From Alkalinema sp. FACHB-956 (GTDB lineage: Bacteria; Cyanobacteriota; Cyanobacteriia; Leptolyngbyales; Leptolyngbyaceae): a stretch of 64,000 nucleotides of DNA. Position 1 is the stretch's first letter. Each line of letters opens with the position of its first letter. Positions 14,614 to 32,220 of this stretch are shown here, piece by piece. Under the pieces are notes generated by a model. That model saw nothing but the letters and a program-made list of their open reading frames with translations, searched no databases and was not told the origin of the DNA. Location of the stretch: positions 1-64,000 of the forward strand of contig NZ_JACJRC010000026.1 of NCBI RefSeq assembly GCF_014697025.1, in the 5' to 3' direction. The translations under genes were made by a program, and so were the position numbers.

Positions 14614-14854
14614 TCAATAGATTGTATTTCCGAATATCGCCGGGAATTACAATTGATGCATCAACTTGGGCGATCGCTGCCTGAATACGTGCCGTTTGCA
14701 TAGGAGTCTGCCATTGTGCCACGGTAGCCCACTCCTGTACAACGGTAAAATCGGTCGGATCATTTTGGTTTTGCAACAGTTCGTTAAACTGTAACGATTG
14801 CCAACTGACCGATAGCCCGTTCCGCTCGGATACTGACTTCCCGATCGGGATCAT
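14609..14854 (-). pseudogene. Fragment resembling an antibiotic-biosynthesis-monooxygenase (ABM) domain
   Basis: The frame encodes about 80 residues whose middle, NDPTDFTVVQEWATVAQWQT, resembles the second half of ABM-type ferredoxin-like domains (ND-P-x-F-x-x-x-E-x-W). The first strand-helix half of the domain is absent and the open frame runs 71 bases into the 3' end of the HEAT-repeat gene in another frame. I read it as a truncated ABM gene joined to the HEAT gene by a deletion. A frameshifted HEAT-ABM fusion is the alternative. Confidence 0.4.
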
Positions 14855-15770
14855 CTAAAGCCTGTTGGAGGGCTTGTAGAGCTAGGGGATCGCCCAGTTT
14901 GCCTAGACCGATCGCAGCTTCCTTGCGGACATCGGACACTGCATCAGTTAGTGCATGAATCAGAATTTCGAGGGTTTGTGCGATCGACTCGCTGGGAACG
15001 ACTTGGGCTTGCAATGCCTGAATCGCAAACCTCCGCACCTGCCAATCTTGATCCTGAATTGCTATGAGCAATCCGGGAATCGCTTCGGGAGCGGGATGCA
15101 AGGCCAGCGACTTCGCCGCATTACGGCGCACCTGCCAATCTTGATCCTGGCCCAATGCCTGGATTAACCAGGGCACGGCTTCATCACTGGCTAAATGCCC
15201 TAAAGTTAATGCGACTTCCCGTCGGACGGCATCCACGGGATCCTGGATCAGTGGCAAAATGGGTGGACAGCGATCGAGTTGATTTAAATACCGCAGGGTA
15301 ATCACTGCCGCTTCCCGCAGCTCCCAATTCGGGGCTGACAAAAAGGGCAAAATGTAGGGCAGCGCCTGCACATCATGGATCTTGCGCAACAAATACAACA
15401 CACTCAATTGCACAGTTGGCTGATTCTGTTGCAATCTGTCCAATAGTAATAACAAATGATCGGGCCTCACCAATTCACCCAAAGCCGACTGCGCCTCTTG
15501 CCGCACCTCAGCATCGGGCGATTGCAGGACATCCAGTAAGGCTGGAACCGCGATCGGATTAGCCAATTCCCAAAGCGCTGTTACCGCTAATTGCTGCACG
15601 ATCTCGTATTCATCCTGCAAAGCCTGAATCAAGGGTGCTACAGCCACTTCATCGCCCAAATGTTGCAGGGTTTTAATCGCGACCAAACGATCGCTCACTT
15701 CCGGCGATCGTAATTGTTCCAGCGCTTCTAGAACGTCTGGATCGCTTTCTAGCCCACCATGACCTAGCAT
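14784..15770 (-). CDS. HEAT-repeat protein
   Basis: A 328-residue all-helical protein built of about ten HEAT repeats of roughly 31 residues. Recurring features are VRREVALTLGHL, WQVRRNAAKSLA, WQVRRFAIQAL, VRKEAAIGLGKL and VSIRAERAIGQL. Such solenoids serve as scaffolds or chaperones and, in cyanobacteria, as bilin-lyase-like proteins; no catalytic motif is visible. It begins 7 bases after the stop of the AprB-like ferredoxin gene, so it is the fourth member of the SsuA-flavoprotein-ferredoxin operon. I infer an assembly or docking role for that redox pair. The 3' end overlaps an ABM-like remnant. Confidence 0.88.
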   Translation of the reverse strand: MLGHGGLESDPDVLEALEQLRSPEVSDRLVAIKTLQHLGDEVAVAPLIQALQDEYEIVQQLAVTALWELANPIAVPALLDVLQSPDAEVRQEAQSALGELVRPDHLLLLLDRLQQNQPTVQLSVLYLLRKIHDVQALPYILPFLSAPNWELREAAVITLRYLNQLDRCPPILPLIQDPVDAVRREVALTLGHLASDEAVPWLIQALGQDQDWQVRRNAAKSLALHPAPEAIPGLLIAIQDQDWQVRRFAIQALQAQVVPSESIAQTLEILIHALTDAVSDVRKEAAIGLGKLGDPLALQALQQALDDPDREVSIRAERAIGQLAIVTV

Positions 15771-15777
15771 CACTCAA

Positions 15778-16005
15778 TTACCTTAAGAGAAACGGAATCT
15801 GCACCGTAATTGCCTTCGTTGGACATTCCTTTTCGCAGGGAAGACAGAACCAACATTCGTCATATTTCATGTAAGCCTTACCTGTCTCAGGATTTTTAGC
15901 CAACACATCCAATGGACAAACATCAATGCACACGGTACATTTTTCCAAACACTTCGATTCATCCACCACCACCGGAACATCTACCCGTTGATTGGTTAAT
16001 GCCAT
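15778..16005 (-). CDS. Two-cluster [4Fe-4S] ferredoxin, AprB-like
   Basis: A 75-residue protein with eight cysteines for two [4Fe-4S] clusters: Cys19, 23, 26, 30 and Cys51, 54, 57, 61. The second motif (KAYMKYDECWFCLPCEKECP) is close to the corresponding part of AprB, the beta subunit of adenylylsulfate reductase, which passes electrons to the FAD of AprA. This protein lacks the C-terminal AprB tail. It starts 6 bases after the flavoprotein stop and is followed within 7 bases by the HEAT gene. It very likely forms an electron-transfer pair with the flavoprotein; direction and substrate are unknown. Confidence 0.9.
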   Translation of the reverse strand: MALTNQRVDVPVVVDESKCLEKCTVCIDVCPLDVLAKNPETGKAYMKYDECWFCLPCEKECPTKAITVQIPFLLR

Positions 16006-16011
16006 AACACC

Positions 16012-17757
16012 TTACCTCATAGCGACATCGTAAACTTCTGTTTGCACATCCACATCAATGATGTAGGGATCAATCGATCGCTTAAACAATTGCATTTCGT
16101 TGGGTGCAACTTGTTTCAAATTAACATGACAAAACCATTCTGCGTCATTACGATCGGGATAATCTACGCGGTAATGATACAATCCCCAACGGCTTTCACG
16201 ACGATAGAGCGAAGCCCTAGCGGCCATTTCCGCACAATCCCGAATAAAATGTACCTCCATACACCGCATTAGTTCATGGGGATCACGCGCCCCCATTTGC
16301 TCTAAGGTGTCGTGGTAGCGGACAAAATGCTGCAAGCCTATTTCCATCTTATTCGTGACCTTGGGCGGCTGTAGGTAATCATTCACCAAACGCCGTAGTT
16401 TGTATTCCACCTGGGTATGGGGAATCCCATTGGGACGGGTTAAGGGGGCATAAACTCGGTTGCGTTCTGTAGCTAAGACATCCCCATCTGGCTCTAAATG
16501 AGGAACCGATCGGGCATATTGCGCTGCCTGTTCTCCCGCAATCCGACCGTAAACAAAAGCGCCAATCATGTAATTATGCGGCACACTGGCCATATCCCCC
16601 GCCGCATACAACCCCGGAATGGTCGTTTCCGCCCGCTCATTCACCCAAACGCCAGACGCACTGTGGCCACTGCATAGCCCAATTTCCGAAATATTCATCT
16701 CAATGCCATGGGTACGGTAATTTTCCCCACGGCCTGCATGGAAACGATCGCGGCTAGGCCGTTCATTGCTCCAAAGAATCGACTCAATTTCGGCAATGGT
16801 AGCTTCATCCAAATGGGTCATCTGCAATTGGATCGGGCCTTTGCCGGAGTTCAGCTCCTTCCAAATTTCCAGCATCATTTGGCCACTCCAATAATCACAA
16901 TTAATGAAGCGGTGGCCCTCAGCATTGGTTGTATAGGCCCCAAAGGGGCCCGCCACATAGGCGCAAGCAGGGCCGTTGTAATCCTTAATCAGCGGGTTAA
17001 TTTGAAAGCATTCGATGTTGGATAACTCAGCTCCGGCATGGTAGGCCATGGAATAGCCATCCCCCGCGTTGGTGGGGTTTTCGTAGGTGCCGTAGAGATA
17101 ACCCGAAGCGGGCAGTCCCAAACGGCCACAAGCACCCGTAGACAGAATGACTGCCTTCGCCTGAATCACTACAAAATTGCCATTGCGCACATCAAAGCCG
17201 ATCGCGCCGATCGCCCGCCCCTCCTGCACGATGACCCGCGTCGCCATCACCCGATTCAGAACCCGCACTTTATGGCGTTTAACCTGGCGCGTCAGAATCG
17301 GTTTGAGGTCTTTGCCCTGGGGCATCGGCAGCACATATTTACCTACCCGATGCACCTGCTTAACGTCGTAGTTCCCGTCGGGATCCTTTTGGAATTGGAC
17401 GCCCCAACCTTCGAGTTCTTGAATGGTTTCGTAGCCCAGGGTTGCGGTTTGCAAAACGGCTTTCTGTTGAACGATGCCATCATTGGCGATCGTCACTTCC
17501 CGCACATATTTTTCCGGAGTGGCATGGCCGGGAATCACCGCAGTATTGACCCCATCCATGCCCATCGCGATCGCGCCACTGCGGCGAATATTAGCCTTTT
17601 CCAGAATCAACACATCCGCATCGGGATTGGCTTGTTTTGCCTTAATCCCAGCCATGGTGCCCGCCGTTCCCCCACCAATTACCAAAACATCAGTAATCAG
17701 GCGATCGGTCGTCATATTTTGGACATCAAAAGCAACATCCGCCCCAGTAGTTTGCAT
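16012..17757 (-). CDS. Fumarate-reductase/AprA-like FAD flavoprotein
   Basis: A 581-residue member of the FAD_binding_2 / succinate dehydrogenase-fumarate reductase flavoprotein superfamily, which includes AprA. The dinucleotide fold GGGTAGT is at 28-34, TGACGRLG is in the middle, and the second FAD stretch is GLYAAGDMASV. A C-terminal helical domain contains RCMEVHFIRDCAEMAARASLYR-like sequence. I prefer ATG 17757 over 17775: GGAAGGGGA lies 8 bases upstream and the ATG overlaps the ssuA TAA by one base (TAATG). Its neighbours are an SsuA lipoprotein upstream and an AprB-like ferredoxin downstream. I infer a soluble redox enzyme acting on a sulfur compound delivered by the importer, but the substrate is unknown. 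Confidence 0.88.
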   Translation of the reverse strand: MQTTGADVAFDVQNMTTDRLITDVLVIGGGTAGTMAGIKAKQANPDADVLILEKANIRRSGAIAMGMDGVNTAVIPGHATPEKYVREVTIANDGIVQQKAVLQTATLGYETIQELEGWGVQFQKDPDGNYDVKQVHRVGKYVLPMPQGKDLKPILTRQVKRHKVRVLNRVMATRVIVQEGRAIGAIGFDVRNGNFVVIQAKAVILSTGACGRLGLPASGYLYGTYENPTNAGDGYSMAYHAGAELSNIECFQINPLIKDYNGPACAYVAGPFGAYTTNAEGHRFINCDYWSGQMMLEIWKELNSGKGPIQLQMTHLDEATIAEIESILWSNERPSRDRFHAGRGENYRTHGIEMNISEIGLCSGHSASGVWVNERAETTIPGLYAAGDMASVPHNYMIGAFVYGRIAGEQAAQYARSVPHLEPDGDVLATERNRVYAPLTRPNGIPHTQVEYKLRRLVNDYLQPPKVTNKMEIGLQHFVRYHDTLEQMGARDPHELMRCMEVHFIRDCAEMAARASLYRRESRWGLYHYRVDYPDRNDAEWFCHVNLKQVAPNEMQLFKRSIDPYIIDVDVQTEVYDVAMR

Positions 17758-18836
17758 TACGAATTCCCCTTCCAAACGGCTTCTTGAACTTTGATTTCCT
17801 TAGGAATCAGCTTAATCTTGCTAAAGGTATCAGCAATTTCCTGCTGCTTCGCAATCACTTCATCAGTCAGCGGTAATACGCCATATTCACGCCGCTTTTC
17901 CGCCAGTTCTAGGGGAGCCGGATCAATACCCAAACTTGGTGCCAAAAACTTTGTCACTTCCGAAGGATTACTCTTAGCCCAATCGCTGCGTTTCCTCACT
18001 TCATCCAAGACAATTTTCAAGGCCGCAGGATTCTTATCAATAAAAGTTTGCGAAGCCAGATAGTAGCCCTTGTTCGGGGCCAATCCTGTTGCATCAGCTA
18101 TCTGCTTAGCTCCGATCTTGGTTTCTGCCACAGCCAAATAGGGATCCCAGATGGCCCAGGCATCCACTTTGCCAGTTTCAAAGGCAGCACGGGCATCAGC
18201 CGGGGTTAAATGCACCACTTCCACATCGCTTAAACTTAAGCCAACGGACTCCAACGCCTTGACTACCAAATAATTGGTATTTGATCCTTTCGCAAAGGCC
18301 AGTTTCTTCCCTTTCAAATCCTCTAATTTTTGAATGGATGAATCCTTGGGAACTACGATCGCTTCGGCTTTGGTGGATAGGGGATCGTAGGCCACATAGC
18401 GCACAGGCGTCCCCGCAGCCTGGGCAAAAATGGGGGGGGCTTCTCCGGTATAGCCAAAATCAACGGAACCCGAATTCATGGCTTCCAACAGCGGCGGCCC
18501 TGCTGGAAATTCAGCCCACTGGACTGTTCCTCCAGAAGCTGCAAGGGCTGTTTCCAAATCCTTGTTTTCCTTTAGCAAACTCAGAATGGTGGCCGCCTTT
18601 TGATAGCCAATTTTGACAACTAAGCCGCTGGCAGGGGGAGTAGCATTGTTGTTCGGCAAATTGCCGGGGGAAGCAGCCTGATTACTTTGATTCCCAGAAG
18701 AACAGGCTGAGACAACTAAACTGAGGCTCAACCCGATCGCCATGAATGATAAAAAGGCTTGCGACGACGATCGGGTAAAGCGAGTCTGAATGCGCTGCCA
18801 AAACGCTGTAAAAAAAACATGTGGTTGTAATGCCAT
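17757..18836 (-). CDS. ssuA: Aliphatic sulfonate ABC transporter substrate-binding lipoprotein
   Basis: A 359-residue periplasmic binding protein of the SsuA group. Signal and lipobox VVSAC place the lipid anchor at Cys45. The mature part has KIGYQKAATILSLLKENKD, VQWAEFPAGPPLLEAMNSGS and YTGEAPPIFAQAAGTP, all hallmark SsuA segments. ATG 18836 is supported by GAGG about 9 bases upstream; a GTG seven codons earlier is less likely. It is translationally coupled to the flavoprotein gene. No permease or ATPase gene accompanies it here, so it must share one of the window's importers, for example the SsuBC set at 47649-49400. Confidence 0.93.
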   Translation of the reverse strand: MALQPHVFFTAFWQRIQTRFTRSSSQAFLSFMAIGLSLSLVVSACSSGNQSNQAASPGNLPNNNATPPASGLVVKIGYQKAATILSLLKENKDLETALAASGGTVQWAEFPAGPPLLEAMNSGSVDFGYTGEAPPIFAQAAGTPVRYVAYDPLSTKAEAIVVPKDSSIQKLEDLKGKKLAFAKGSNTNYLVVKALESVGLSLSDVEVVHLTPADARAAFETGKVDAWAIWDPYLAVAETKIGAKQIADATGLAPNKGYYLASQTFIDKNPAALKIVLDEVRKRSDWAKSNPSEVTKFLAPSLGIDPAPLELAEKRREYGVLPLTDEVIAKQQEIADTFSKIKLIPKEIKVQEAVWKGNS

Positions 18837-25661: not shown

Positions 25662-26009
25662 TTATGCCTGACTTTGGTAGGGACGGGGCAATTGTCGGAG
25701 TTGATGGGCTGTGTCTTGGTCGCTATTATTTTTTCTGCCATAGCCCCACCCCAAAATCCGGCGATACTCCCCTAGGATGCCACGATCGATGAGTGCCGCT
25801 TCATCCACGGGAATCTGGGTGTGGGACTGCGGTGCTACATAGAGGGCATCCGCTGGACAATAGGCTTCACACATGAAACAGGTTTGACAATCTTCTTGGC
25901 GAGCAATCACTGGCGGTTGGTCAGGCACTGCATCAAACACATTGGTTGGACAGACCTGAACGCAAACATCACAATTAATGCAACGATGATGGCTGACTAG
26001 CTCGATCAT
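25662..26009 (-). CDS. Two-cluster [4Fe-4S] ferredoxin paired with flavoprotein (second module)
   Basis: A 115-residue protein with Cys10, 13, 16, 20 and Cys41, 44, 47, 51 in two CxxCxxCxxxCP motifs, plus a C-terminal tail of about 60 residues containing LGEYRRILGW. The ATG overlaps the stop of the flavoprotein gene (ATGA), so the two are translationally coupled. A second copy of this ferredoxin type, with the same tail pattern (LLGSYRRDVGW), is cut by the window's right edge at 63778. It is presumably the electron partner of the 574-residue flavoprotein. It differs from the shorter AprB-like protein at 15778 in cluster spacing and tail. Confidence 0.9.
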   Translation of the reverse strand: MIELVSHHRCINCDVCVQVCPTNVFDAVPDQPPVIARQEDCQTCFMCEAYCPADALYVAPQSHTQIPVDEAALIDRGILGEYRRILGWGYGRKNNSDQDTAHQLRQLPRPYQSQA

Positions 26010-27730
26010 AGGGATCCTCCGGCAGCGATGGTGAGTTCAGACTGATTGCCCGCTGGATTAATCGTTGCAATGGGGGTTGGATTAGAGGAAGTGATGGTAG
26101 CAGCGATAGCGTTTTCTCTCGTATCTTCTCGATCGCGAATCCAGTCGCGCCGCACCCAGAGCCGATCTAAGCCGCCCGATGCTTGGTAATAACGCTGCTG
26201 GGGATCGGTATCGGGATAATCGACGCGCAGATGTTCCCCCCGACTTTCGGTGCGATGGAGCGCACTAAAGTAACCCCAGCGGGCCACCGCAGTGAGGGCA
26301 GCGGCACGGCGCGAAAATTCCACATCCCGTACGGTATCTTGTTTGGGGGTTCCCTGAACCTGTCGCCATAGGGTTTCCAATTGGGCTAAGGAATGAACCA
26401 AACCGGCCTCAGATCGGAAGTGATTTTTTTCTAAAGGAAAGACCTCCGCCTGTACCCCTTCAACGATCGCCGCACTATCAAAGGAGTCCTGATGGGTCGA
26501 TCGTAATCCGGCCTGTCCTGCGGGAAAAACCTCCCTGGCATGAATTTGATCCCCCAGACCCTTGGCAAAGGTCGCTGCCCCCGCCCCCGCCCATTGCCCT
26601 GTGGAGATGGCCCAAGCGGCATTGGGACCTCCACCCCCAGAGCTGAGTCCTGCTAAAAATTCTCGGGAAGCCGCATCCCCCGCTGCATACAAACCGGGAA
26701 CCGTCGTCGCGCAGTCATCAGCCACAAGCCGAATGCCTCCCGTCCCCCGCACAGTTCCCTCCAACAGCATTGTCACAGGTACCCGTTCTGTGTAGGGATC
26801 AATCTCTGCTTTTTTGTAGGGCAAGAAGGCAATAAAGTGCGATTTCTCAATCACTGCTTTGACTTCGGGGGTGGCTCGATCCAACTGGGCATAGACTGGG
26901 CCTTGCAGCAGCGCCTTGGGCAAAAAGCTTGGGTCACGACGACCATTGATATAACCGCCCAAATCATTGCCCGCTTCATCGGTAAAGGTGGCCCAACCAA
27001 AGGGCACTCCCCGCGTCACCGTGGCATTAAAGGCCGTCGAAATGGCATAGTGATTGGATGCCTCCATACTGGACAGTTCGCCCCCCACCTCTGCGGCCAT
27101 CAGGAGCCCATCCCCCGTATTGGTATTGCAACCCAAGGCTTTACTTAGAAAAGCACAGCCCCCATTGGCTAACACCACGGCTCCAGCCCGAACGGTATAG
27201 GCCCGATCGTGTTGTCGCTGGATACCCCGTGCACCGGCCACGGCCCCATCCTGGGTGAGTAACAGCTCTAAGGCGGGGCTTTGATCGAGAATTTGCACCC
27301 CAGCGCGCAGCAAGGTCTTGCGCAGAATCCGCATATATTCAGGGCCGTAGTAACTCTGCCGCACCGATTTCCCATTTTCCTTAGGAAAGCGATACCCCCA
27401 ACTTTCTACGAGGGGCAAACTAAGCCAGGTTTTTTCAATGACACGCTCAATCCAACGACGATTGGCGAGGTCTTTTCCCAGGCGATAACGCTCCTGGCTA
27501 ATCCGTTCCCAATGCTCGGGGCTCGGAGCCATAATGCCATTGCCACTGGCGGCGGCGGCTCCACTCGTGCCTAAAAATCCCTTATCCACTACAACCACTC
27601 TTGCGCCTTGGCTGGCCGCAGACCAAGCCGCCCAAGCCGCAGCAGGCCCCCCGCCCACAACTAGGACATCGGCAGTGAGTTGCAATTCCGTTTCAGCCTG
27701 AATCGATACATGAGTAGACACGGACATCAT
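26006..27730 (-). CDS. Fumarate-reductase/AprA-like FAD flavoprotein (second module)
   Basis: A 574-residue flavoprotein with the FAD-binding fold VVGGGPAAAWAAWSAA (24-39), a central VLANGGCAFLSKALG stretch and the C-terminal FAD contact GLYAAGDAASREF. The helical domain includes RRAAALTAVARWGYFSALHRTESRGEH. It is only distantly similar to the flavoprotein at 16012, mainly in the FAD elements and in the ESRxxxxxxRxDYPDxD region, which both share. The last 45 residues are a Ser/Thr/Asn/Pro-rich tail. Two adjacent ATGs (27730, 27727) are possible starts after AAGGGA. It lies downstream of a taurine-type ABC operon and is coupled to the ferredoxin gene. Substrate unknown; a sulfur-linked oxidoreduction is inferred. 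Confidence 0.85.
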   Translation of the reverse strand: MMSVSTHVSIQAETELQLTADVLVVGGGPAAAWAAWSAASQGARVVVVDKGFLGTSGAAAASGNGIMAPSPEHWERISQERYRLGKDLANRRWIERVIEKTWLSLPLVESWGYRFPKENGKSVRQSYYGPEYMRILRKTLLRAGVQILDQSPALELLLTQDGAVAGARGIQRQHDRAYTVRAGAVVLANGGCAFLSKALGCNTNTGDGLLMAAEVGGELSSMEASNHYAISTAFNATVTRGVPFGWATFTDEAGNDLGGYINGRRDPSFLPKALLQGPVYAQLDRATPEVKAVIEKSHFIAFLPYKKAEIDPYTERVPVTMLLEGTVRGTGGIRLVADDCATTVPGLYAAGDAASREFLAGLSSGGGGPNAAWAISTGQWAGAGAATFAKGLGDQIHAREVFPAGQAGLRSTHQDSFDSAAIVEGVQAEVFPLEKNHFRSEAGLVHSLAQLETLWRQVQGTPKQDTVRDVEFSRRAAALTAVARWGYFSALHRTESRGEHLRVDYPDTDPQQRYYQASGGLDRLWVRRDWIRDREDTRENAIAATITSSNPTPIATINPAGNQSELTIAAGGSL

Positions 27731-27963: not shown

Positions 27964-28785
27964 CTATTCCATCTGATCAGTCCGGATGCTATTAACCAGC
28001 AGTTCTCGCATTGCGATAAAGTCTTGGGAAAGTCGCAGGGTCGAGGCGGATTCATCGAGCGATCGCTGGGCAAATGGATTAGCAATTTCCTTGACAATCC
28101 GACCAGGACGAGCGTGCATCACGAGAATCCGGGTGGATAGGAGCAATGCCTCCTCGACATCGTGGGTGATAAAAAAGATAGTTTTCTGGGTTTTTTGCCA
28201 AATCCCCCGCAGGTGAGTTTGCATTGACTCGCGGGTTAGGGCATCTAATGCCCCAAAGGGTTCATCCATGAGGATGATTTGGGGCTCGGCGGCTAAGGTG
28301 CGAGCGATCGCGGCTCGTTGCTGCATACCGCCAGACAGTTGATAGGGCAACAAATGGGCTGCATGGGCCAGATCCACCATGTCCAGTACGGCTGAGGCCC
28401 GCTGTTTGCGCTCTAGTTTGGCAACCCGTTTCATCTGTAGGCCGAATTCAACATTGCGGGCGATCGAGAGCCAAGGAAACAAATTGGGTCGCTGAAATAC
28501 CACGCCAACATCGGCATTCGGTGCGGTATGGGGTTTGCCTGCCACCCAAATGGAGCCTTGAGTTGGTTTTTGATAAGCTGCAAGTACCCGCAGTAGGGTG
28601 GTTTTGCCACAACCGGAGGAACCCAGAACACAGACAAAATCACCAGTGGCTAAGGCTAGATTAATATCCTGTAAAACTTCGTTACGATCAGTGCCATTAC
28701 CAAAGCTAACGCTAACATTCACAAGCTTGGCAACACTAGGGGTGATCTGTGCTGATGTAACGGGTCTGCTACTTTGGACTGTCAT
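27964..28785 (-). CDS. tauB: Taurine/sulfonate-type ABC transporter ATP-binding protein
   Basis: A 273-residue ATPase with intact elements: Walker A GSSGCGKT (55-62), Q-loop FQRPNLFPW, signature LSGGMQQR (150-157), Walker B IILMDE (170-175), D-loop GALD and switch His in [18 protein letters not shown] lies just before ATG. It is the last gene of amidase-permease-binding protein-ATPase, and the TauA-type binding protein next to it supports the taurine assignment. The gene symbol rests on that context rather than on ATPase sequence alone. Confidence 0.88.
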   Translation of the reverse strand: MTVQSSRPVTSAQITPSVAKLVNVSVSFGNGTDRNEVLQDINLALATGDFVCVLGSSGCGKTTLLRVLAAYQKPTQGSIWVAGKPHTAPNADVGVVFQRPNLFPWLSIARNVEFGLQMKRVAKLERKQRASAVLDMVDLAHAAHLLPYQLSGGMQQRAAIARTLAAEPQIILMDEPFGALDALTRESMQTHLRGIWQKTQKTIFFITHDVEEALLLSTRILVMHARPGRIVKEIANPFAQRSLDESASTLRLSQDFIAMRELLVNSIRTDQME

Positions 28786-28844
28786 CCTCTAGGTTCCTCG
28801 ATGCGAGACGGGTTAGAAATGAGAGGTCGCTCAATGAGCGATGG

Positions 28845-29921
28845 CTATTTGTTGGTATAAATGGCCTGTTGATAGGTCGCCAAATCCGGAGCGCTATTGA
28901 TCTTTTTCTGGGTTACGGCAAAATCAGCTGAACTCTTGAGGATTTTGGCAAAATCCCCCGGCTGACTGGCTGCACCTAGGTATTTAGCCTCTTTTTGTTC
29001 CGATGAATCCAGCCAAATGACGCCGTTACTCCCAGCTTCTGTGTCCGCTGGGGTGATGTTAATTTCCTTGGCTAGGGCCGCGATCGCAGTTTTTGGATCG
29101 GTGCGATAGAGTTTGACTGCTTCATCGAGGAGGCTGATGTACTGTTTCACCACGTCTGGATATTTCTCAGCAAACTCCTTGCGCACCACCCCGACATCAG
29201 CGGTGATAATGCCTTTCTTGGCAACATCGGCGGAGGTGGTGATAATCTGGCCGCCATCTTTTTTCAGCTTGCCAAGATTTGGTTCCCACACATAACTCGC
29301 ATCAATGTCCCCCCGTTGCCATGCAGCCACAATATCCGGCGGTTGCAGATCGAGGATGGTCACATCCTTCTGATCAATTTTTTCCTGGAGTAATAGGGAT
29401 TCTAGGGAGAAGTGGGCGGTTGAACCAAAGGGGGTTGCGACTTTCTTACCCTTGAGATCGGCGATCGATTGCACTCCATTTTTGCCAATCAGAGCCTCCG
29501 CTGAACCAATAATGTCGTGAATAAAGTAAACCTGGTAGGCCAAGCCCTGGGCAATCCCTACACTCGCTGGTACCGATCCGACTAAACCAAAGTCAATGCC
29601 ATTGGCCGCGATCGCCGTATTCACATCGCGTCCAGAGTCAAAACTGGTGTATTGAACTTGGGAGTTTGGAAAGGCTTTCGCTGCTAGGCCCAAGGCTTTC
29701 ACTAAGAGCTCTCCGTTGGGAATCACTTGGTAGCCAATCCGAATCTTATCCGGCACGGAGCCACCGGAGCTATTCACAGTAGAAGGATTGCCGCTAGCCG
29801 TAGGTGAGCTGCTAGAACTCGATCGACCCGTTTGCTCACTAGCGCAACTGGACAAAATGACTGGTACTGTAGCACCCACCAAACCCAACAACAGATTTCG
29901 ACGTTTCAAATTCACAATCAC
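28845..29921 (-). CDS. tauA: Taurine ABC transporter substrate-binding lipoprotein, TauA-like
   Basis: A 358-residue binding protein with signal NLLLGLVGATVPVILSSC (lipobox LSSC). The body follows TauA closely in order: IGYQVIPNGELLVKALGL, FDSGRDVNTAIAANGIDFG, GSAEALI, LKGKKVATPFGSTAHFSL, LDLQPPDIVAAWQRGDIDA, YVWEPNLGKLKKDG. The QPPxIxAAWQRGDID block is diagnostic. The start is GTG at 29921 or 29915, downstream of GAGGAG. It delivers taurine or a close analogue to the TauBC complex encoded on either side. The gene lies 26 bases after the permease stop. Confidence 0.93.
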   Translation of the reverse strand: MIVNLKRRNLLLGLVGATVPVILSSCASEQTGRSSSSSSPTASGNPSTVNSSGGSVPDKIRIGYQVIPNGELLVKALGLAAKAFPNSQVQYTSFDSGRDVNTAIAANGIDFGLVGSVPASVGIAQGLAYQVYFIHDIIGSAEALIGKNGVQSIADLKGKKVATPFGSTAHFSLESLLLQEKIDQKDVTILDLQPPDIVAAWQRGDIDASYVWEPNLGKLKKDGGQIITTSADVAKKGIITADVGVVRKEFAEKYPDVVKQYISLLDEAVKLYRTDPKTAIAALAKEINITPADTEAGSNGVIWLDSSEQKEAKYLGAASQPGDFAKILKSSADFAVTQKKINSAPDLATYQQAIYTNK

Positions 29922-29947
29922 TCACTCCTCGCTCAAACTCTTATCAA

Positions 29948-30778
29948 CTACGCATCGCGACCAATCCAGGGAAGCTGACTTTTCTCGACCCAACGAATCA
30001 CGGTGTCGATCAAGATTGCAATCGTTCCCATGATGATAATGCCAACAAAAATTACATCACTTCGGAGAAATTTACTCGCATCTAAGACCATCCAGCCGAT
30101 CCCGGAAACGGCAGCGACCATTTCCGCTGCCACTAGTGTGGAATAGGCAACGCCGATCGCGGTTCGTAACCCCGTAAAAATTTCTGGTAGACAGGAGGGC
30201 AAGATGACATAGACAAATAGCTGCCAGCCCGATGCTCCCAGCGATCGTGCGCCATTGATGCGATCGATGGAAATCCGCTGCACCCCCGAGACAACCGCCA
30301 GAAATAAGGGTGCAAACGCAGCGAGAAATAACAGCGCAATCTTCGAGGGATTTTCAATTCCCAGCCAAATGACCAGTAAGGTGTAATAGGCTAGGGGAGG
30401 TAGGGGCCGGTAAAATTCAATCAGGGGATCAAGGGCCGCTCGTGCTGGTTTGAAGAAACCACACAGCATACCCAACGGAATCGCGGTCACGATCGCGAAT
30501 ACTAGGGCGGCAAATAGCCGATACATACTTTGGAAAATGTGATACCCTAACGAGTTACCTTTGTAGCCCTCACTCAAAATTCTCAGGAAGGCTGACCATA
30601 CAGCGATCGGTGAGGGTAAGAATAGCGGGCTGACCCACTTGAAGGATGTCGCGATCGTCCACAAGACTAAGATTACCAGAACCGAGGTAATGGAAATCAA
30701 TCGTTCTGAAGTCCAGAATCGCCGATTCAACTGAACCCAATTCACCGCATTATCGATTTGCTTCGTCCTGAGGTTCAT
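29948..30778 (-). CDS. tauC: Taurine/sulfonate-type ABC transporter permease
   Basis: A 276-residue inner-membrane permease of the SsuC/TauC type. The first transmembrane segment is near residues 30-47 (LISITSVLVILVLWTIAT); the core follows, with the EAA-type loop NGARSLGASGWQLFVYVILPS around 173-193. GIGWMVLDASKFLRSDVIFVG near the end is characteristic of the group. It begins 2 bases after the amidase stop codon, so it is tightly coupled to that gene. Confidence 0.9.
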   Translation of the reverse strand: MNLRTKQIDNAVNWVQLNRRFWTSERLISITSVLVILVLWTIATSFKWVSPLFLPSPIAVWSAFLRILSEGYKGNSLGYHIFQSMYRLFAALVFAIVTAIPLGMLCGFFKPARAALDPLIEFYRPLPPLAYYTLLVIWLGIENPSKIALLFLAAFAPLFLAVVSGVQRISIDRINGARSLGASGWQLFVYVILPSCLPEIFTGLRTAIGVAYSTLVAAEMVAAVSGIGWMVLDASKFLRSDVIFVGIIIMGTIAILIDTVIRWVEKSQLPWIGRDA

Positions 30779-30780
30779 GA

Positions 30781-32220
30781 CTATCGTAGTGTTGGGGTTG
30801 TAAAGGGATGCACTGTTTCGTATGCCTTTGCCGCTTGTAGTACTAGAGCATCGTTATATTTGGCCCCAACAATTTGTAAGCCAACGGGTAAACCGGCTGC
30901 GGTAAATCCGATCGGCACCGAGGCAGCGGGTTGTTGGGTCAAATTAAAGGGATAGGTAAAGGGTGTCCAGTGTAATCCTGGGGGATACAAAGCGGATTGT
31001 GGCCCCCCTTGGCCCACGGGAAAAGCCACGATCGGTAAAGTCGGCGTGAGCAATAAATCATAGTTCTGATGAAACAGGCTGAGTTGTCGTCCGAGTGCTT
31101 CCCGCGCCTCCAGAGCCTGCTGATATTCGGCGAGGGTCACGGCTTCTCCGGCTGCGGCTGAAGCTTGCAGGCCATCTTCAACTAACGCCCGTTGTTCCGC
31201 TGTGAACGATCGCAGTAACTTGGCTGCCCCCGTAATCCAGAACGTCCGAAAAATAGGATAGGGATTCTCAAATCCTGGATCAACTGGCTCCACGATCGCC
31301 CCTAATGTGGCAAATACCTGCACTGCCTTTTCCACCAGCGCCGCCACCTCTGGCTCCACTGCGGCATAACCCAAATTTGGACTATAGGCAATTCGCAACC
31401 CTTTCACACCTCGCCCTAAATTCAGGCGATAGTCTTGGCCAGATTCCGGCAGTGCATACCAGTCACGGGGATCGGGATGGGCGATCGCCGTTAACCCCAG
31501 CGCCGCATCCTCAACATGGCGCGTTATTACCCCAATGTGAAACAGGGTTCCCGTATGGGCGGACGGATAGCCCGCAACCCGCCCAAAGGTGGGTTTGAAC
31601 CCAAAAACGCCTGTAAATGCAGCCGGTTGGCGAGTCGAGCCACCCCCATCGGTACTAATGTGCAACATGCCTAGGTTTAAGGCCGCTGCAACCGCTGCAC
31701 CGCCACTGCTACCACCGGGTGTCAGTTCTAGGTTCCAAGGATTGCGCGTAATTCCGCTCAAAGGGGATTCCGTTACCCCTTTCCAGCCAAATTCGGAAGT
31801 GGTTGTTTTGCCTAAAAAAATTGCACCCTGCGATCGTAACTGAGCTACGGCTGGTGCATCTTCCTGCCATGATTGCTGAAGGGAAATGGCCCGACTGCCT
31901 CGCAGGGTTGGCCAGTTTTTTGTGAGCAGTAAATCCTTAACGGTGGTGGGAATACCATCCACTAAGCCCAACGGCTCACCCCGCTGCCAACGGGCTTCTG
32001 AAGCTCTTGCTGCGGTTAATGCACGGGCTTCATCAACTAGAACAAAGGCATTCACTGAGCGATTGGTGAGTCGAATCTGGCGGAGTACCGCCTGCGTCAC
32101 TTCTACGGGTGAGAGCGATCGATTTCTATAATGATGCAGTAAATCGATCGCATTGAGGTTTTGAACATCCGTGGGTGTAGAAGATGAGCTGGTTTGAGGT
32201 GCCGCCGCCTGAAGGTTCAT
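30781..32220 (-). CDS. Amidase-signature hydrolase at the head of the taurine ABC operon
   Basis: A 479-residue amidase-signature enzyme with the full catalytic triad: Lys95 (TTVKDLL), cis-Ser171 (GGSSGG, 169-174) and the nucleophile Ser195 (DGGGSTRQPA). The sequence fits free-standing amidases rather than GatA, as no GatB/C genes are nearby. It has no signal peptide, so it should act in the cytoplasm. Only 2 bases separate it from tauC, and the direction is the same. I infer that it hydrolyses an amide brought in by the transporter, such as an N-acyl-taurine. Vertebrate FAAH, of the same family, does cleave N-acyl-taurines, but the substrate here is untested. Confidence 0.9.
   Translation of the reverse strand: MNLQAAAPQTSSSSTPTDVQNLNAIDLLHHYRNRSLSPVEVTQAVLRQIRLTNRSVNAFVLVDEARALTAARASEARWQRGEPLGLVDGIPTTVKDLLLTKNWPTLRGSRAISLQQSWQEDAPAVAQLRSQGAIFLGKTTTSEFGWKGVTESPLSGITRNPWNLELTPGGSSGGAAVAAALNLGMLHISTDGGGSTRQPAAFTGVFGFKPTFGRVAGYPSAHTGTLFHIGVITRHVEDAALGLTAIAHPDPRDWYALPESGQDYRLNLGRGVKGLRIAYSPNLGYAAVEPEVAALVEKAVQVFATLGAIVEPVDPGFENPYPIFRTFWITGAAKLLRSFTAEQRALVEDGLQASAAAGEAVTLAEYQQALEAREALGRQLSLFHQNYDLLLTPTLPIVAFPVGQGGPQSALYPPGLHWTPFTYPFNLTQQPAASVPIGFTAAGLPVGLQIVGAKYNDALVLQAAKAYETVHPFTTPTLR

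Follow-up and report, generated by a model that had tools for sequence, protein, structure and literature searches.

The FP1-Fd1-HEAT module and its position

We analysed a stretch of 64,000 nucleotides from Alkalinema sp. FACHB-956 (positions 1 to 64,000 of contig NZ_JACJRC010000026.1; hereafter the window), in which the span 15778-17757 of the minus strand corresponds exactly to two genes, one for a flavoprotein (FP1) and one for a small ferredoxin (Fd1). With the HEAT-repeat gene that follows them they make up a three-member module, which is preceded by the gene for a sulfonate-binding lipoprotein:

17757-18836 from ATG, minus strand: SsuA-family sulfonate-binding lipoprotein (TIGR01728 SsuA_fam, 240.7 bits against a cut-off of 163.5)
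16012-17757, minus strand: FP1, AprA/FrdA-superfamily flavin adenine dinucleotide (FAD) flavoprotein, 581 aa from ATG, presumed catalytic subunit (NF006131; PF00890 and PF02910)
15778-16005, minus strand: Fd1, 2[4Fe-4S] ferredoxin, 75 aa, 8 Cys (4Fe-4S dicluster (Fer4) matches; AprB-like core)
14784-15773 (GTG start) or to 15770 (ATG start), minus strand: HEAT-repeat protein, the module's third member (HEAT_2, 6e-60)

The lipoprotein gene overlaps FP1 by 1 base, 6 bases separate FP1 from Fd1, and the gap between Fd1 and the HEAT gene is 7 bases with the start at ATG 15770 or 4 bases with GTG 15773. The initial annotation of this DNA had described the same order (ssuA, flavoprotein, 8-Cys ferredoxin, HEAT) with a 1-base overlap and 6- and 7-base gaps, and we find it as described, the 7-base gap going with the ATG start. 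A lipobox, VSAC, was read by eye in the lipoprotein.

Conservation of the module and its neighbourhood

A scan of genome contigs returned at least 592 relatives among 598 stretches, from which the best 80 loci were kept and joined to 10 plasmid loci, giving 90 (the best-match set). Because this set consists of best matches, the counts were repeated on evenly drawn genomes: 37 loci from 16 cyanobacteria and 21 Pseudomonadota, our own genome excluded, with neighbours taken within 7.5 kb (the Pseudomonadota draw was centred on G396, itself counted in the 21 and already among the earlier loci). Neighbours were labelled with phmmer, mostly from one seed each, so that ‘absent’ stands for unmatched at E 1e-5. 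In the even draw, 17 of 386 cyanobacterial genomes, our own included, and 21 of 398 from Pseudomonadota have a member of the FP1 family (NF006131) that scores over the cut-off.

The module is conserved as a unit. In the best-match set a same-strand Fd1 accompanies FP1 in 86/90 loci and a HEAT gene in 85/90, plus one locus in which it is fused to FP1; in three of the four loci without both partners the sequence stops no more than 1.6 kb from FP1, and in the fourth (L049) no more than 5.3 kb from it. In the evenly drawn set both partners stand beside FP1 in 36/37 loci, the exception (L219) being a contig end, and this recurrence argues that the arrangement is not due to chance. The fusion, in Tsukamurella (L035), joins FP1 and HEAT in an 893-aa protein that scores 1568 bits against NF010374. 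As a control, we considered 14 anchors in eight genomes that encode flavoproteins of the AsfA type (see below): a HEAT gene lies within 7.5 kb of two, and the three HEAT genes found there belong to nearby FP1 modules, from which we conclude that HEAT partners FP1 and not flavoprotein-ferredoxin pairs in general.

Genes for import and for iron-sulfur cluster assembly recur around the module. An SsuA/NMT1-type binding protein is encoded near 33/37 evenly drawn loci, the SsuA type being one of two binding-protein types that accompany the module, and in 9 of the 16 cyanobacteria the first labelled gene upstream of FP1 is of the SsuA type. Sulfonate and ATP-binding cassette (ABC) transporter genes are thus found near FP1 in other genomes of both sets, a conserved neighbourhood on which the initial annotation had made its reading depend. 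Mrp is encoded near 15/16 cyanobacterial loci, and DUF971 (GBBH-like N) near all 21 from Pseudomonadota. According to two papers (PMC7980591, PMC5890173), the former of which calls the role of DUF971 elusive, proteins of the Mrp type are P-loop NTPases that take part in assembling iron-sulfur clusters, and HCF101 combines a domain of this type with DUF971. The alternation of Mrp and DUF971 beside FP1-Fd1-HEAT suggests dedicated [4Fe-4S] assembly.

Genes that might supply electrons or export a product are present in a minority of genomes. Ferredoxin-NADP reductase is encoded near 8/21 and FdxA near 4/21 of the evenly drawn Pseudomonadota, and some best-match loci carry an Nfn-like fusion of GltD-like and PyrK-like parts in frames of 1153-1196 aa; together these neighbours suggest that electrons flow towards FP1. 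Exporter-type genes (YeiH/TauE, both regarded as exporters, in keeping with annotation names) lie near 8/37 evenly drawn loci. In three loci (L110, L092, L059) SsuA-D-C-B-type genes and an SsuE-like gene, the latter labelled by eye, directly precede the module. The regulators nearby are of the GntR-UTRA, Crp or LysR-SBP (LysR with solute-binding protein) kinds, with no single sulfur regulator. In sulfur oxidisers the GltD/PyrK-like frames of 1153-1196 aa stand with FdxA beside FP1 (L034:10574-14035, L118:15739-19329). Many cyanobacterial loci carry, divergent from FP1, a LysR regulator whose C-terminal part is an NMT1-like binding domain (for example L031:7676-9676 and L073:6785-8761); this regulator and the importer may recognise one and the same ligand. 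In Nostoc edaphicum (L032:11716-14897) HAD, methyltransferase, GNAT and VOC genes lie between FP1 and Fd1, with Fd1, HEAT and Mrp staying together; the gap between FP1 and Fd1 is wider in other Nostoc loci too.

The taxa with the module include Prochlorococcus, Nostoc, Pseudomonas, Bradyrhizobium, Thiobacillus, Halothiobacillus and Tsukamurella. PP_0204-PP_0211 of Pseudomonas putida KT2440 may be this module. For PP_0206 of that strain, a ‘ferredoxin’, PMC6066579 gives an induction of 7.5-fold at 1.5 mM zinc and of 8.5-fold at 2.5 mM. We found no recognisable description of FP1-Fd1-HEAT with its iron-sulfur assembly genes and importer among the papers listed by searches of the open full-text literature, subscription papers lying mostly outside those searches. 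What appears to be new here is this arrangement; the superfamilies involved are already known.

Family and phylogeny of FP1

FP1 is a member of NF006131 (PRK08275, NCBIfam; 988.7 bits, cut-off 587), a family named ‘fumarate reductase/succinate dehydrogenase flavoprotein subunit’. This family and NF010374 (PRK13800), whose C-terminal part (positions 609-895) is matched by the HEAT protein of the window at 1.2e-25, are sequence families with a borrowed name; a literature search on the two families brought up one paper, on mycorrhizal fungi. Were the name taken at face value, FP1 would be an ordinary fumarate reductase (FrdA), succinate dehydrogenase (SdhA) or L-aspartate oxidase (NadB), and the shared Pfam domains would fit; but its scores fall far under the curated cut-offs of the listed FrdA, SdhA and NadB models (TIGR01812, 155.3 of 567.3 bits; TIGR00551, 115.9 of 452.75 bits). 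At the positions of the HPTG and RGEG motifs, the dicarboxylate site of those enzymes, FP1 has NPLIKDYNGPACAYV; both motifs are absent, as is the His that SdhA and FrdA have in the RSH motif. Joining FP1 to the Sdh/Frd/NadB group in the tree was rejected by the approximately unbiased (AU) test (p-AU 0.005). We therefore reject this identity on cut-offs, motifs and tree topology and grant it a negligible probability; FP1 falls outside the NadB, FrdA and SdhA clades, as the reading in the initial annotation required.

The tree was built from rows of FP1, AprA, PAPS (3'-phosphoadenylylsulfate) reductase, AsfA-like, SdhA, FrdA and NadB sequences. All 19 FP1 rows form one group in 200/200 bootstrap trees, and this clade is sister to the APS (adenylylsulfate)/PAPS reductases with support of 99/98 and in 994/1000 bootstraps. 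These values are from a tree without the row X_L144, the only one dropped; in the first tree, which included it, FP1 grouped with the APS/PAPS reductases at 94/92 and this very long row stood beside that group, and the sister relation held on rebuilding. The program warned of long branches and an odd letter composition for some rows, and the groups for the AU test were chosen once the first tree had been seen. The locus behind the dropped row, L144 (G394, C19), encodes a deep-branching AprA/FP1-like flavoprotein on a very long branch.

The closest solved protein by sequence is the alpha subunit of the PAPS reductase of Methanothermococcus (8a8o, E 5.8e-70), and AprA of Archaeoglobus fulgidus is another of the closest solved relatives; the resemblance to the AprBA architecture seen in the initial annotation is thereby supported. 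8a8o is also Foldseek rank 1 for an AlphaFold2 model of FP1 (32 rows; mean predicted local distance difference test score 63.8, residues 208-368 under 50), which speaks for overall fold only: the capping domain being poorly modelled, we made no pocket reading from it. FP1 nevertheless scores below the cut-offs for APS reductase alpha subunits (TIGR02061, 193.4 of 641.75 bits; NF005331, 321.2 of 557 bits).

Pocket residues of FP1

The residues of the AprA active site are largely exchanged in FP1. In A. fulgidus AprA, R265 holds the sulfate, and N74, E141, W234 and H398 have active-site roles as well. The R265 site is Leu (L256) in FP1 and Leu in 127/127 loci (the two sets together, with 122 distinct core sequences and five contigs common to both), and Arg is kept there in 6/6 AprA/PAPSR-type rows. 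Elsewhere E141 is replaced by Lys or Arg (K133 in the FP1 of the window), Q145 by Val (V142), W234 by Tyr (Y225) and G274 by Cys. FP1 keeps N74 and the His of a motif that aligns with the capping-domain His of AprA (H398, aligned by motif only, because the A. fulgidus sequence used extends no further than residue 294). L256, C265, N71, R212 and H365 are invariant over the 127 loci. The pocket of FP1 is therefore conserved, yet differs from the pockets that bind APS, PAPS or dicarboxylates, and because the R265 site is Leu throughout, flavin-sulfite chemistry should not be assumed.

These residues bear directly on whether FP1-Fd1 could be an APS/PAPS reductase of the assimilatory kind found in Methanothermococcus thermolithotrophicus (MtPAPSR). 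MtPAPSR is the best solved relative by sequence and fold, its clade is sister to that of FP1, its setting is assimilatory, and FP1 retains N74 as well as the His motif of the capping domain; but MtPAPSR has Arg at the R265 site and a Lys120-Arg121-Ser122 loop, the latter named in the excerpted text of PMC10322725, where FP1 has Leu and another loop. In addition, all 17 FP1-bearing cyanobacterial genomes have strong matches to the CysH-type family PF01507 (best E 2.6e-46 or lower), only strong matches being counted because this family also matches 14/14 control genomes at E 0.001. Sulfate-activation genes are unnamed in the incomplete annotation tables of the 10 plasmid loci and were not searched for elsewhere. 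On the pocket residues and the strong CysH-type matches we reject this identity, which we consider very improbable. A separate set of genes on a plasmid of Ilyobacter polytropus (L162:4390-9721) consists, in this order, of cysC, an AprA-like gene, a ferredoxin gene, cysD and a gene for a GTP-binding protein; it groups with 8a8o in the tree and probably encodes a PAPS reductase of the kind known from Methanothermococcus, here in a bacterium.

The ferredoxin

Fd1 carries two [4Fe-4S] motifs and a Trp in motif II, as does the AprB-type beta subunit. Motif II, CWxCxxCxxxCP with the Trp directly after the first Cys, is present in 86/86 ferredoxins of the best-match set and 36/36 of the evenly drawn set, which bears out the AprB-like second cluster motif pointed out in the initial annotation. 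In MtPAPSR a Trp is proposed to participate in electron transfer (PMC10322725, in excerpt). Among the solved relatives of Fd1 are beta subunits from APS reductase (3gyx_B, 4.9e-9; 1jnr_B, 4.1e-6) and from PAPS reductase (8a8o_C, 2.2e-6), all outscored by formylmethanofuran dehydrogenase polyferredoxins, and the match to TIGR02060 aprB (1.3e-8, 34.8 bits) is far under the cut-off of 135.65 and is not the best for Fd1. At 75 aa, against 150 in 1jnr_B and 104 in 8a8o_C, Fd1 lacks the C-terminal tail of AprB.

Relation to AsfAB and to the oxygenases

A system of the same make-up has been described: AsfAB, of the asfRABC arylsulfonate desulfonation system, likewise combines an FrdA-superfamily flavoprotein with a small 2[4Fe-4S] ferredoxin near SsuA-type genes. 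According to a review (PMC4267179), P. putida S-313 with a transposon in asfA could no longer use aromatic sulfonates, whereas its use of aliphatic ones did not change. The statement in the initial annotation that no function was established for such a pair was therefore mistaken, and it did not mention that a pair of this type lies 8 kb from FP1 in the same window, where it forms a separate, paralogous system outside the FP1 module:

26006-27730, minus strand: FP2, AsfA-type flavoprotein (49% identity to the AsfA-like protein of Cupriavidus metallidurans CH34; in a clade with AsfA-like rows)
25662-26009, minus strand: Fd2, AsfB-type ferredoxin overlapping FP2 (51% identity to the ferredoxin encoded next to the AsfA-like gene of CH34; Fer4 matches)

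The CH34 megaplasmid homologues of FP2 and Fd2 are presumably Rmet_4334/5, named as the AsfA/AsfB pair of that strain in the excerpt of PMC2864759, the tag itself being unmatched since the record is unannotated there. FP1 differs from AsfA in several respects: it shares 28% identity with the CH34 protein (residues 16-391) and 30% with FP2 (11-539), it keeps the N74 and His sites that the AsfA-type rows lack, HEAT accompanies it and not AsfA, and Fd1 has the motif-II Trp that Fd2 is without. FP1 and Asf rows each fall on one side of a branch in 200/200 bootstrap trees, with FP2 inside the Asf group. We therefore reject FP1 as an AsfA orthologue; it belongs to another clade, and FP2 is the AsfA type. 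A binding protein is encoded within 7.5 kb of 7 of the 14 AsfA-type anchors.

The module also differs from AprBA, with which it shares an FAD alpha and ferredoxin-type beta subunit, the nearest clade, the motif-II Trp, N74 and the capping-domain His motif: R265, E141, Q145 and W234 are replaced, Fd1 is without the AprB tail, and the module comes with ABC importer genes and HEAT. By these sequence comparisons, the module is a member of neither AsfAB, AprBA nor MtPAPSR.

The same review describes AsfAB, in the part excerpted, as an electron-transfer system for C-S bond oxygenation and not as a desulfonating enzyme. By analogy, FP1-Fd1 could be the electron-transfer pair of a desulfonating oxygenase of the SsuD, NtaA or TauD type, with no contact between FP1 and the substrate, which we regard as quite unlikely. 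SsuD/NtaA-type genes do lie within 8 kb in 17/90 best-match loci, the ssu-type genes directly adjoin the module in the three loci named above, and SsuD-, NtaA- and TauD-type genes are present in the window, though farther off. In the even draw, however, an SsuD-type gene is near 1/16 and an NtaA-type gene near 1/16 cyanobacterial loci, with neither at any of the 21 from Pseudomonadota, counts in which distant oxygenases may be missed by a single-seed search, and TauD-type genes are near 7/37 by the same kind of search. Many pocket-facing positions of FP1 are invariant, which favours a specific substrate, and SsuD already receives reduced flavin from SsuE (PMC4267179, in excerpt).

Proposed function

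Tentatively, and with somewhat less than even confidence, we favour a reading in which FP1-Fd1-HEAT is a ferredoxin-fed, AprBA-like complex that would release sulfite from an imported organosulfur compound, parallel to AsfAB. In such a scheme an SsuA/NMT1-type importer would bring in a sulfonate or related sulfo-compound. Electrons would come from photosynthetic ferredoxin in cyanobacteria, which would not need ferredoxin-NADP reductase, FdxA or Nfn-like genes beside FP1, and from NADPH via ferredoxin-NADP reductase, FdxA or the Nfn-like fusion in part of the proteobacteria; they would then reach FP1 and its FAD by way of both [4Fe-4S] clusters and the conserved Trp of Fd1. As in APS reductase, the reduced FAD would accept the sulfo group, and the sulfite set free would be assimilated or, in genomes that have an exporter, exported. 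The HEAT subunit probably does the work of the AprB tail by holding Fd1 and FP1 together, and the Mrp or DUF971 partners probably aid cluster insertion. The links to sulfur behind this reading are the ssu-type genes directly before the module in three loci, the SsuA-type gene upstream of FP1 in 9/16 evenly drawn cyanobacteria, the exporter-type genes and the share of the genome's SsuA-family matches that lies on this contig, with AsfAB as a precedent. What the sequences show is gene order, co-conservation, the FP1-HEAT fusion, the clade, the lost APS/PAPS pocket and, in a minority of genomes, electron-supply and exporter-type genes; the complex itself, the direction in which electrons flow, the substrate, the FAD-sulfite chemistry and the part played by HEAT are inferred from these. 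The initial annotation had proposed a desulfonating module acting on what SsuA delivers; the module may act on such a compound, and both that substrate and the label ‘desulfonating’ are best kept provisional.

A more specific and more doubtful form of this proposal, to which we still allow some weight, is that the module is a ferredoxin-dependent, O2-independent reductive desulfonase derived from AprBA, in which reduced FAD would strip a C-SO3 (or N-/S-SO3) substrate of its sulfo group and give off sulfite; HEAT would stand in for the AprB clamp, the module would have an importer dedicated to it, and some lineages would add a sulfite exporter.

Several observations weigh against the sulfite-releasing complex. 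Besides the loss of the R265 Arg and the description of AsfAB as an electron-transfer system, joining FP1 to AsfA was not rejected (p-AU 0.053). No match to Mrp, DUF971, YeiH or TauE was found in the window by phmmer, which places them outside the neighbourhood of this copy. The Nfn-like fusion occurs at 8/49 non-cyanobacterial best-match loci and at 0/37 evenly drawn ones, and most evenly drawn loci are without a labelled sulfonate monooxygenase or exporter. The dedicated binding protein is under the SsuA cut-off (122.1 of 163.5), and the permease of the module resembles nitrate permeases (NtrB, 3.4e-37) as well as taurine permeases (TauC/SsuC). Finally, FP1 relatives are carried by Prochlorococcus and by the sulfur oxidisers Thiobacillus and Halothiobacillus, for all of which sulfate should be plentiful, so that sulfur supply alone is not the universal purpose of the module.

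The permease, the choice of regulators, the occurrence in sulfur oxidisers and Prochlorococcus, and an amidase within 8 kb in 3/90 best-match loci would also suit a module that reduces a non-sulfonate compound (an N-/S-sulfo compound, an N-oxide or another anion) from an NMT1-type transporter and serves nitrogen or carbon supply or detoxification. This alternative is in our view unlikely; against it stand the SsuA-type gene next upstream of FP1 in 9/16 evenly drawn cyanobacteria, the ssu-type genes that adjoin three loci, and the exporter-type neighbours.

Other organosulfur genes of the window

The contig is rich in organosulfur genes. Those of the window include genes for four SsuA-family binding proteins, a sulfatase and its activating enzyme (FGE), two proteins of the TauD type, monooxygenases of the luciferase type and a protein resembling arylsulfotransferases. 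The genome as a whole has nine SsuA-family matches at E <= 1e-15, three of them over the cut-off; four of the nine, two over the cut-off, are on this contig, which makes up 65,564 of 6,161,523 bases (1.06%). Upstream of the FP2-Fd2 pair (27964-32220) lie genes for an ABC ATPase, a taurine-type binding protein, a permease and an amidase. A third AsfAB-like pair straddles the window end (contig ~63.77-65.43 kb, L005), its ferredoxin 57% and flavoprotein 54% identical to Fd2 and FP2 over the matched parts; with a stop inside the flavoprotein match and the contig end near, this pair may be broken or cut.

Implications

Because databases name the FP1 family after fumarate reductase, the role of the module is invisible to readers of annotations. 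The FP1 module can now be distinguished from asfA, a marker used in soil ecology. If sulfite is indeed freed from sulfonates with ferredoxin electrons, this would be a new enzyme route in the organic sulfur cycle, and would explain the HEAT-fused ‘fumarate reductase’ of an actinobacterium (Tsukamurella). Should the doubtful O2-independent reductive desulfonase prove correct, it would stand as a third route beside the oxygenases and the lyase/glycyl-radical enzymes. In either case the module would offer a defined system that is testable in laboratory strains.

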